Source: Candidatus Pacearchaeota archaeon (GTDB lineage: Archaea; Nanobdellota; Nanobdellia; Pacearchaeales; GW2011-AR1). Taken from it: DNA of 60,485 nucleotides. The stretch spans positions 1 to 60,485 of the forward strand of contig SICV01000005.1 of assembly GCA_009694725.1 (NCBI GenBank), written 5' to 3'. Shown piece by piece: positions 4,499-9,076 of this stretch. The notes below the pieces were generated by a model, which worked only from the letters and a program-made list of their open reading frames with translations, was not told the origin of the DNA and made no database searches. A program made the translations under genes and the position numbers. Positions within the stretch are counted from its first letter, which is position 1. Each line of letters opens with the position of its first letter.

Positions 4499-4774
4499 AT
4501 GCAACAACTCAAACAAAATCCTTTTGCACGCTCACCCACGTTAGAAACAGTACAAATGGTAGAACGAGCAATAGAGGAGAATTCAGGTACCTATACCAGA
4601 ACAGAACTTTGGAAGAAATTGCCGAAGCAAGTAATGTGGCAGACCTATTTGTATATATTAGATTATTTACAAAGCATCAATAAAATAGCTCTTGATCGAG
4701 AAGATCATGTTGCCTATATCTGGAATCCAGAGCTAGCGCAAAAAATGGCTCACCGAAAAAGGATACAACTATAA
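4499..4774 (+). CDS. Winged-HTH-like antitoxin/DNA-binding protein
   Basis: 91 aa, HTH-like pattern (YTRTELWKKLPKQVMWQTYLYILDYLQSINKIALDREDHVAYIWN); stop abuts the downstream toxin ATG (TAAATG). Confidence 0.6.
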   Translation: MQQLKQNPFARSPTLETVQMVERAIEENSGTYTRTELWKKLPKQVMWQTYLYILDYLQSINKIALDREDHVAYIWNPELAQKMAHRKRIQL

Positions 4775-5107
4775 ATGAAAATCATACGCCCTTCTGAAGT
4801 TATCTTTGCAGATGATGCTGGTGAAAAAGCATTTGATGCATTAGAAAAAGGCAACGAATTAAGAAAATATCTGGAGCGTGCAATAAAGGATATACAACAG
4901 AATGCATTTTGCGGTATTCAGCTCCCAAAGCGTCTCTTTCCTCAAGAATACGTAAAGGAACACAAAATAACGAATCTCTGGAAGTATGATTTGCCCGATG
5001 GATGGAGAGTAGTGTATACCATTACTACTCCAAGCAAAGTTGAAGTGATAGCAATCATTCTCGAATGGTTATCCCATAAAGAATATGAACGGAGGTTCAA
5101 GTACTAA
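4775..5107 (+). CDS. RelE/ParE-like toxin
   Basis: LWKYDLPDGWRVVYTITTPSKVEVIAIILEWLSHKEYERRFKY matches the archaeal RelE-like C-terminal pattern. Confidence 0.7.
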   Translation: MKIIRPSEVIFADDAGEKAFDALEKGNELRKYLERAIKDIQQNAFCGIQLPKRLFPQEYVKEHKITNLWKYDLPDGWRVVYTITTPSKVEVIAIILEWLSHKEYERRFKY

Positions 5108-5779: not shown

Positions 5780-5989
5780 ATAGGTCTTCAGTCGTGTCTG
5801 AGCTTCAGAAAAAGAAAGAGGGGCATGTCTGTCATAAGGCCGGATGTTAAAGAAAAAATGATTTTCAACATGTGTAGGAGTAACGACTGCTTGCATCCCA
5901 TGAATCTGAGCATGCGCTTGTTCATGGAGCAGACGGCTCAAGGCATACACAATACCGGGGCGATCTTTTTCTGTCTGAAATGAAAGCAC
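5771..5989 (-). CDS. ACT-domain protein
   Basis: EKDRPGIVYALSRLLHEQAHAQIHGMQAVVTP; true start uncertain (GTG or upstream non-ATG). Confidence 0.6.
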   Translation of the reverse strand: MLSFQTEKDRPGIVYALSRLLHEQAHAQIHGMQAVVTPTHVENHFFFNIRPYDRHAPLSFSEAQTRLKTYLE

Positions 5990-6105
5990 ACAGATACACA
6001 GGCGGGCGTGAGTTTCTTGATACAGTCATGGGCCTCATTTTAATCGATTCAAAGATTCGTCAAGAAGCAATAAAAAGAGAGTATCAAACAAGACCTACTC
6101 ACTAA
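5980..6105 (+). CDS. Possible 41-aa small protein MKAHRYTGGREFLDTVMGLILIDSKIRQEAIKREYQTRPTH
   Basis: Intact ORF between the ACT gene and smc, antisense overlap with the ACT 5' end. Confidence 0.2.
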   Translation: MKAHRYTGGREFLDTVMGLILIDSKIRQEAIKREYQTRPTH

Positions 6106-9076
6106 GAACAGTTGATTCTTCAGTAATTGCTTGCTCACCAGCTTGTTCTACTCTTTGTTGCTGTTCTACTTGTTCCTCAATTTTCTGTGCTTCTGCTGCC
6201 GCTTCTTGTATATTCAAGCTCAAGACTTTTGACACATTATCATGCATACTCACCCCATACAAGACCTGCGCTTGCATAATAATCGCATCATTGTGTGTAA
6301 TCACAATATACTGTCCCTGTTTCATGTACTTCACCAACAACGCCGCAAGACGCTCAGAGTTACGTTTATCCAATGCCGCGTCAATTTCATCAAACACATA
6401 GAAATGATAGGGTTTGTATTCTTGAATCGCAAACAAGAGCGACAAAGCGACCAAGGTCTGTTCCCCACCAGATAAGGAAGTCGCATCAAAGTATTTACCT
6501 TTCGCAAGCCGCACAATAATATGTACCCCTCCGGCAAAAATATCTTCAGGATTTTCTAATTCAAGATAGGCGGTCCCCTTTGTGTACAATTGCGCAAAGT
6601 TCTGGGTAAATAATTCATTCATAGCCCGGAACGTACGCATAAAGGAAAAGCGTTTCTTCTTATCAATTTCAGCAATAATCCCTATAATATCTATTTTTTC
6701 TTTTTCAACAATCTGTACTTTTCCATATACTTCATCATAGGAGTGTTTGACTTCATCATAGACTTCGAGGGCTCGTTGATTCACGCTCCCAATCGAACCA
6801 AGGTGTTCATGTGCTTTGCCAAGACGCTCTTCAAGATACGCCACACTTCCTTGTATCACTTCAAGCCCGGCAAAATCAATTAATTCCATTTCAACCGCTT
6901 CTCGTTCGGCATCAATCTTTGCTTTGCCAATCTTCAAATAATTGACTTGTTCTTCAATTGCGCGTATTCCACTCTGGGCCTGGCTCAATTCACCAGTCTT
7001 TGCTTGAATCAGTCGTTGTTTTTCTTCTCGTTCCGCAAATAATTGTTTAAATCTGGCCTGCAGATCTTTTTCCTGTCCTTCTTTTTCCTGTAACTGCCCT
7101 TGTTTTGTTTCAATGATCGTACTAAATGTCCCAATTTCTTTCTCTGCTTCCTCACGATCTCGGAGAGCTTGTTTAATGACTACGTGCATCTGTTCAAGTT
7201 CTCGCTTCTTGAAGAATAACGTTTTATCCATATCTTGTGAAGTACGAGCCGATAATTCCTCAATTTCCAGCATTTTAGAGCTATATTTTTCTTCGAGGGC
7301 TGAAATATCAGTTCCTTTCTCTTCAAGCTGTACACGTCGATGTTCTAACGTTTGCAATTCCTGACGAATCAATTTTTCTTCCTCAAGGTTCTTCTTGAGC
7401 TGTTGATGTTTCTCTTTCAAGGTGTGATGACGAATCTGCTCAACTTCAGCGCTATGAAGCCGTTGTTCAAGGTGAGCGAGGTCATGGGCCAAGGAACTTC
7501 GTTGAGCCAATAACTGTTGTAGCACTTCAGTACTCAACATACGTTGCTTCTCGGCGTGCCCCGCTAACAGATTAGCTTCATCACGCACATGTTGTTTATG
7601 GTCAGGCGTAATGGTCGTGCGACAAAGAGGACAGATATCGAGATTAGCAACCTGGTCGGTCAATTTCAATGAACGTTCCATTTCAATCTCCGAAACAGAA
7701 ATTAATTTTTCATGCTGGAGCGTTTGTTTGGCAATTGCTTCCAGTTCAGCGCGCAAATGAGTCGTTTGTGCTTTACCTTCATGAACAAAGTGACTACACG
7801 CCTCTTCAGTCTTGAACACTAAATGCGCTGCTCCTTCTTCCAACTGTCGAACCAGCGCTTCATTAAATGCAATTGTACGAGATAAGGTCTTTTCTCGTTC
7901 AAGCCAACGTTCACGAATATGGATCAGTTCAGATTTGGTTGCACGGACTTTTGTACGTGCTTCTTCAAGCTGGGCAAGTTCTTGTTTCTTTTTAGTTAAC
8001 TCTTCTGCTTTCTGAGCAGATCCCGGGGCGTCCGTAGCAAGCTGGGTAATTTCTACTTCAAGAGCAGGCACTGAACGCTGTAATTCCTGTATTCTTCGTT
8101 CAAAGTTCAACCGACGTTGCTCATATCCTTCTTTACGTACCTTCATTCCTTCCAATTCAGCCCGAAGATTAGCAATATGTGTATGGAGTTGTTCTTGCTC
8201 AAGCCCGGTTGCTTGCTGCACTTGCCGAGAAATCTGATTGCTTTGTTCTCCCAACGCATCAATCACGGCTTGCAATTCAAGGCCCTTAGATTTGGCAGCA
8301 TCTTTATGGGCCGTTTTTTCACCAATCGAATGGTTAATCGTATCCCCTTCCTTTTGCTTGTCAATCTTTCGTTTCGTCAATAACGAAGCTTTACACCGGC
8401 GAACGGTCAATTCTAACTCTTTGAACTTTAATGCTTGCTGGCGTTCATGTTCCAAATTCTTCAAATAGGCAGTACGTTCTCGCAGAATCGCCATAATCTC
8501 TTTCAATCGTTCATCTGTTTTCTCTAATTCTTTCAAACTTTTTTCTTTCCGTGATTCATAAATGGCAATCCCCGCAACTTCTTCAATGATTTTACGTCGT
8601 TCTTCAGGATGCATCTTAACAATGGACTGTATTTGGCCCTGAAGCACCATATTAAATCCATACGGGTCAATCCCTGCCTGGGCTAAGATCTCAATGACTT
8701 CTAATCGCGTCTTCGTCTCCCCATTAATCTTATAAATTCCCTGCCCATTTGCTCGGACAATTCTGGTCAAACTCACCTCATCCGTTTCCAATCCAAACAA
8801 GCGATCTCGATTATCAAACACTAATTCAACACTTGCCTCTCGAGCCGGTTTGACATATTTGCTCCCCATAAACAAGAGGTTCTTTGCCTTTGCCGCACGC
8901 AGACTCTTAATGCTTAATCGACCCAAAGCAAAGCATAAGGCATCAGAAATATTACTCTTACCTGAACCATTGGGGCCCAAGACTACGTTAATCCCCTTAT
9001 CAAAGTGGACTTCTGTTCGTCGTGCAAAGCTTTTGAAGCCATGCATTACCATTCGTGTAATATGCACCATCTTCAT
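6095..9076 (-). CDS. smc: SMC-family ATPase with central Rad50-type zinc-hook (CPLC) instead of an SMC hinge
   Basis: Walker A GPNGSGKSN, Q-loop VLQGQIQSI, signature LSGGEQTLVALSLLFAI, Walker B YVFDEIDAALD; CPLC at residues 482-485 of 993. Confidence 0.9.
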   Translation of the reverse strand: MKMVHITRMVMHGFKSFARRTEVHFDKGINVVLGPNGSGKSNISDALCFALGRLSIKSLRAAKAKNLLFMGSKYVKPAREASVELVFDNRDRLFGLETDEVSLTRIVRANGQGIYKINGETKTRLEVIEILAQAGIDPYGFNMVLQGQIQSIVKMHPEERRKIIEEVAGIAIYESRKEKSLKELEKTDERLKEIMAILRERTAYLKNLEHERQQALKFKELELTVRRCKASLLTKRKIDKQKEGDTINHSIGEKTAHKDAAKSKGLELQAVIDALGEQSNQISRQVQQATGLEQEQLHTHIANLRAELEGMKVRKEGYEQRRLNFERRIQELQRSVPALEVEITQLATDAPGSAQKAEELTKKKQELAQLEEARTKVRATKSELIHIRERWLEREKTLSRTIAFNEALVRQLEEGAAHLVFKTEEACSHFVHEGKAQTTHLRAELEAIAKQTLQHEKLISVSEIEMERSLKLTDQVANLDICPLCRTTITPDHKQHVRDEANLLAGHAEKQRMLSTEVLQQLLAQRSSLAHDLAHLEQRLHSAEVEQIRHHTLKEKHQQLKKNLEEEKLIRQELQTLEHRRVQLEEKGTDISALEEKYSSKMLEIEELSARTSQDMDKTLFFKKRELEQMHVVIKQALRDREEAEKEIGTFSTIIETKQGQLQEKEGQEKDLQARFKQLFAEREEKQRLIQAKTGELSQAQSGIRAIEEQVNYLKIGKAKIDAEREAVEMELIDFAGLEVIQGSVAYLEERLGKAHEHLGSIGSVNQRALEVYDEVKHSYDEVYGKVQIVEKEKIDIIGIIAEIDKKKRFSFMRTFRAMNELFTQNFAQLYTKGTAYLELENPEDIFAGGVHIIVRLAKGKYFDATSLSGGEQTLVALSLLFAIQEYKPYHFYVFDEIDAALDKRNSERLAALLVKYMKQGQYIVITHNDAIIMQAQVLYGVSMHDNVSKVLSLNIQEAAAEAQKIEEQVEQQQRVEQAGEQAITEESTVLSE

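Follow-up and report, generated by a model that had tools for sequence, protein, structure and literature searches.

The protein encoded at 6095-9076 on the minus strand of the window (the whole 60,485-nucleotide stretch of DNA analysed here) is very likely a chromosomal SMC, the ATPase of condensin, in which the hinge was lost once and a Rad50-like zinc hook is found instead in most of the order. The reading frame holds 993 codons and its translation is open throughout, with no stop. The features recognised in it are these:

6095-9076, minus strand: smc gene, 993 aa, with SMC heads, two coiled-coil arms, a zinc-hook apex and no hinge.
8951-8977, minus strand: Walker A GPNGSGKSN (residues 34-42), from the translation; residues 34-37 and 39-42 are invariant among the aligned relatives.
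7643-8569, minus strand: N-terminal coiled-coil arm (about residues 170-478), from AlphaFold helices; in the profile alignment this arm of the relatives and that of hinge SMCs are collinear.
7607-7642, minus strand: zinc-hook apex (about residues 479-490), in the apex model a loop that joins two long helices; Rad50 comes first in the PDB profile search.
7622-7633, minus strand: CPLC (residues 482-485), the presumed zinc ligands; C, P and C are invariant in 30 apices and one CPxC occurs in each of 57 proteins.
6668-7606, minus strand: C-terminal coiled-coil arm (about residues 491-803), from AlphaFold helices; in relatives the profile match restarts past the hook.
6458-6475, minus strand: ABC signature LSGGEQ (residues 868-873), from the translation; L868-E872 are invariant with the relatives.
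6368-6394, minus strand: Walker B FDEIDAALD (residues 895-903), from the translation; D896 and E897 are invariant with the relatives.

The protein was found to match SMC by its heads (Walker A, signature and Walker B), both in profile searches and in the tree, and an earlier note on this DNA, which had recognised the head motifs in the 993-aa ORF, was correct on this point. Pfam SMC_N scored 211 bits (cut-off 40). Among the NCBIfam models, SMC_prok_A gave 489 bits and SMC_prok_B 465, whereas the Rad50 models gave at most 82 bits against archaeal Rad50 cut-offs of 700 to 1,087, and the ASRP model (NF045487) gave 55 bits against a cut-off of 300. The SMC_prok_A score lies below the equivalog cut-off of that model (489 vs 729 bits), as is expected if the hinge is missing. 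The closest solved structures were observed to be archaeal and bacterial Smc heads.

Among the domains considered to define SMC proteins is the hinge, which has been proposed to serve as a DNA-binding site and as a DNA gate. Pfam SMC_hinge (PF06470) was absent from the 993-aa protein, even at E-values up to 10. A hinge-SMC profile, built from 23 hinge-type SMCs, was observed to run collinear with the hook SMCs to about position 490 and in several of them to restart at about position 725. As an example, residues 6-483 of one relative (L154) align to profile positions 11-491 and residues 508-960 to positions 726-1176, with the hook cysteine at residue 486. The hinge core (about profile positions 535-676) is located inside the unmatched part, and about 235 profile positions, comprising the hinge and nearby coil, are replaced in hook SMCs by about 20 residues with CPxC. 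In other hook SMCs the ends of the profile match scatter, as is expected of a coiled coil. The arms of hook and hinge SMCs were nearly collinear in the profile alignment, whereas a multiple alignment gave arms about 30 to 45 residues shorter; because the two alignments disagree, we make no claim on the exact arm length. The Pfam search and the profile applied to relatives thus bear out the earlier view that the hinge is gone.

The compared set consisted of 57 hinge-free SMCs with a CxxC (the window's own protein and 56 relatives), 5 hinge-free SMCs without one and 23 hinge-type SMCs. All 57 hook SMCs were found to have exactly one CxxC, which is always CPxC and always at the same apex position, whereas a protein-internal CxxC occurs in none of the 23 hinge types; the single CxxC of the hinge-type L119 falls right where its stop-to-stop frame begins. 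CPLC is therefore not a chance occurrence. It is contained in the apex stretch LDICPLCRTTITPDH (7598-7642, minus strand) near the midpoint of the SMC, in agreement with the earlier placement of a CxxC at residues 482-485 close to the middle of the coiled coil. Across the 30 aligned apex sequences, no columns other than those of this C, P and C are invariant.

An AlphaFold model of the apex as a monomer (116 residues, 3 sequences, pLDDT 92.9) is a hairpin in which two long helices are joined by a 14-residue loop bearing CPLC. The top two Foldseek matches of this model in the PDB were the Zn hook of P. furiosus Rad50, with an E-value (0.015) that is weak, as can be expected of so simple a hairpin. 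The full-length monomer (6 sequences) was predicted at low confidence (pTM 0.39) and serves for rough helix boundaries only; it shows a helix to residue 478, a short turn and a helix from residue 491, with no globular domain between these residues.

The likeness of the apex to the zinc hook of Rad50 was also observed in sequence. A profile of 30 apices searched against 177,635 PDB sequences placed two Rad50 zinc hooks, 6zff (E 2.6e-10) and 1l8d (E 4e-10), first and second, in matches about 100 residues long; human RAD50 (5gox) ranked third. Rad50_zn_hook (PF04423) matched 27 of the 30 apex members at E-values up to 1 (best 3e-8) and passed its curated cut-off in the SMC frames of several relatives; the window's own apex gave a weak match of 13.5 bits. 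With a second profile, made from Rad50 apices of the same order, all 57 hook SMCs were matched with CPxC in register (median 34 bits), and 49 of the 57 stayed in register, at up to 35 bits, when CPxC was masked. Hinge SMC controls reached at most 8 bits. The earlier proposal of a Rad50-type zinc hook in the place of the hinge is thus supported by the apex profiles, the invariant CPxC and the fold match. A common origin of the SMC and Rad50 hooks is likely on these comparisons, and Rad50 would be the source.

SMC hooks were found to resemble one another more than the Rad50 hook of their own genome, so that any transfer would be old. In the six genomes tested, no recent gene conversion of the SMC hook by the resident Rad50 was seen.

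Among named records the closest match, at 90% identity, comes from a Candidatus Pacearchaeota MAG (L006). Homologues are present in 136 of 141 genomes of the family, in frames mostly of about 955-1040 aa, and in 179 of 185 genomes of the order sample. The Pfam hinge was matched in just two of the 185 genomes and a genuine hinge SMC was found in none of them. One match (L196, G105:C51) is to a bacterial-looking SMC on a 2.3-kb contig of a genome that also has a hook SMC, and is likely contamination; the other (G091) is a spurious match in an unrelated 316-aa ORF. In the class sample the hinge was matched in 164 of 225 genomes, all outside the order, and SMC frames there are typically 1,100-1,200 aa; that the window's protein is shorter than usual SMCs, as the earlier note had stated, therefore holds. 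Fifteen class genomes outside the order gave no hinge match: 14 had no convincing SMC match and the remaining one only a 175-aa SMC fragment at a contig end. Among the matches listed outside the order in the phylum sample, the frames were hinge-sized or fragments, and in three Woesearchaeota (L008-L010) a full hinge is present in frames of 1178-1193 aa.

No SMC match was obtained in eight genomes (G212, G222, G229, G243, G248, G253, G258 and G263) of another family of the class (f23). Some of these SMC-less genomes are single contigs that are more than 90% complete, and SMC may have been lost in this family.

In a heads-only tree, a long and fully supported branch separates the SMC heads from the Rad50 heads of the same order. 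All hinge-free heads group in a single clade, with support of 100/99 and recovered in every bootstrap tree sampled; when the tree is rooted with Rad50, this clade is nested among hinge SMCs. Hinge loss was therefore a single and derived event which, as read from the sequences, is placed in the ancestor of the order. The earlier note had named head phylogeny as a test against Rad50, and the heads were observed to fall inside SMC and far from Rad50.

Five relatives (L016, L033, L038, L149 and L091) have intein-like insertions of about 460-530 aa at the SMC Walker A, between GPNGSGK and SN, which begin with C and end with HN. One of these relatives belongs to the genus of the window.

The genome to which the window belongs also encodes ScpA (G000:C10:26967-27596) and ScpB (G000:C5:107321-107749), which were found in 131 of 141 family genomes and in 53 of 56 order genomes respectively. 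The smc gene is not the one that adjoins mre11; an Mre11-like phosphoesterase gene adjoins a separate Rad50 gene on contig C4, and this Rad50 has its own hook, CPTC. No hinge-type SMC was found in the genome. The genome check proposed in the earlier note thus found ScpA, ScpB and a separate Mre11-Rad50. In another genome (G085), scpA is located about 5 kb from smc, and rnhB and a similar membrane-protein gene flank smc as they do in the window.

Two side observations concern these partner genes. The Rad50 gene of the window's genome (L137:4282-6401, on C4) falls into two frames, of 575 and 151 aa, with an overlap at 5946-6009; this reflects either a frameshift or an assembly error. In G085 (L191:2691-4624), scpA and the gene next to it are divergently oriented, and by eye this neighbour resembles DisA, a diadenylate cyclase.

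With ScpA, ScpB and a separate Mre11-Rad50 present, the hook SMC probably serves as the main condensin, its dimerisation module having been exchanged. By analogy with the Rad50 hook and with two published domain swaps, the hook would bind zinc and dimerise, and the protein would be expected to bind ScpA and to fold the chromosome. Two SMC chains would probably be joined by one Zn2+ common to two CPxC hooks and held by four cysteines. A closed ring like that of Smc-ScpAB would then be formed by hook, arms, heads and ScpA. The heads, by binding and hydrolysing ATP, would drive DNA capture and loop extrusion without a hinge, and the rest of the Smc-ScpAB cycle would run as usual. A B. subtilis Smc in which the hinge was exchanged for the P. 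furiosus Rad50 zinc hook supports normal growth on rich medium (PMC5344682). Since ScpA and ScpB are kept, the arms are nearly collinear and this chimera works, we consider a machine of the usual kind, dimerised by a different module, more likely than the distinct mode of chromosome organisation that the earlier note had suggested.

Eight relatives in the same order (L201-L208, from G153, G158, G157, G160, G155, G145, G146 and G150) were found to have SMC frames of only 795-824 aa, with intact heads and neither hinge nor CxxC. The apex hook is therefore not indispensable in the order. Their apex is helical and different from that of hook SMCs, and it gave no informative family or structure match, only designed bundles and generic coiled coils. 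Among the genomes with short SMCs that were sampled for ScpB, only G160 gave no match, and the match in G158 was weak and partial. Hinge-free and CxxC-free SMCs occur in four places of the SMC head tree, and at the base of the hinge-free clade a count of changes on the tree gave a tie between hook first and hookless first. Since similar hooks are found at the same place, we favour one gain of the hook, which would thus have one origin, with later losses. It is conceivable, as a tentative reading, that the only detected condensin of the order passed from hinge to zinc hook and then, in several lineages, to neither, with a different helical apex. If this is true, condensin activity would need no specific apical dimerisation domain of a known kind.

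The CPxC hook, being of the Rad50 type, would also suit a divergent long-armed Rad50/SbcC acting in break repair, an identity that we consider extremely improbable because the head profiles give 489 bits for SMC against at most 82 for Rad50, the Rad50 heads of the order lie apart on their long branch and the same genome has a separate Rad50 beside an Mre11-like gene. There is next to no likelihood either that the protein belongs to the archaea-specific SMC-related proteins (ASRP; coalescin ClsN and the Sph family), although these are archaeal, related to SMC and mostly zinc-hooked (PMC9389158); the ASRP score falls far short of its cut-off (55 vs 300 bits) whereas the SMC model gives 489, and ASRPs form a clade apart (PMC9389158) while the present heads fall among ordinary SMCs of the class in trees of SMC and Rad50 heads. 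Because the SMC and the Rad50 of this genome both have CPxC hooks (CPLC and CPTC), mixed dimers could couple chromosome folding to break repair, a highly improbable arrangement given the unlike contexts of the two hooks (16 identities over 95 positions).

Two further explanations leave the SMC identity as it is. The hook might bind zinc and link separate SMC complexes in trans instead of closing the ring of one dimer, since the same hook chemistry allows both arrangements, trans bridging has been proposed for Rad50 and the hookless relatives in the order imply that the hook may not be the sole contact between chains. This is improbable, as Rad50 hooks were seen stably joined within one complex by high-speed AFM (PMC6969161) and the engineered Smc hook acts as an intramolecular dimer module in the place of the hinge (PMC5344682). 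It is rather unlikely that the CPxC apex arose independently on a shortened hairpin and came to resemble Rad50 by convergence, with the function unchanged from our main reading. A CPxC hairpin is short and strongly constrained, and the greater mutual likeness of SMC hooks would fit convergence; however, 49 of 57 apices kept their register with CPxC masked, scoring up to 35 bits where hinge SMCs did not exceed 8, and the PDB match to Rad50 covers about 100 residues. A shared origin with the Rad50 hook is accordingly preferred.

The hook SMCs are like the canonical SMC of Smc-ScpAB (Pyrococcus and Bacillus Smc and the woesearchaeal L008-L010) in heads, collinear arms, ScpA and ScpB and tree position, and differ from it in the exchange of the hinge region for the short CPxC apex. 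With the Rad50 zinc hook (PF04423; 1l8d, 6zff), which is their best match in sequence and fold, they share the CPxC hairpin and its flanks, but here the hook is carried by an SMC and the Rad50 of the same genome is encoded beside the Mre11-like gene. The same architecture, SMC heads and arms with a Rad50 hook for the hinge, was made in the laboratory in 2017 as B. subtilis Smc(Zh) (PMC5344682), and in fission yeast Rad50 the opposite exchange was engineered (PMC6969161); unlike these constructs, the present protein is natural and represents the only detected SMC of most of the order. SMCs without a hinge have been reported from oceanic Actinomycetes (PMC12153180). These resemble the SMCs of about 800 aa found in some relatives, but they are bacterial and are reported to be without CXXC, and so without a hook, whereas the window's SMC has CPLC.

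Rad50 and ClsN/Sph (ASRP, PMC9389158) are known to carry zinc hooks; in the open-access papers searched, such a hook was not found described for any natural canonical SMC. What appears to be new, judged from sequence, is an SMC by descent without one of the defining SMC domains and with a zinc hook instead. An order whose only detected SMC is hingeless yet accompanied by ScpA and ScpB is natural evidence of a replaceable hinge fold, as engineered Smc(Zh) had already suggested, and it makes testable which of the proposed hinge functions are general. Zinc chelation is a possible way of opening the ring at the apex. The swap also suggests that SMC and Rad50 apices are exchangeable in evolution, which matters for trees of the SMC superfamily and for hinge-based annotation.

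Two other loci in the window were noticed. The product of the plus-strand gene at 467-1792 is a fusion of a nicotianamine-synthase-like domain with a GNAT acetyltransferase domain; such a protein is unexpected in so small a genome and is possibly related to metal handling. At 4499-5107 on the plus strand there are two small adjacent ORFs of 91 and 110 aa, the second of which resembles a RelE/ParE-type toxin by eye.
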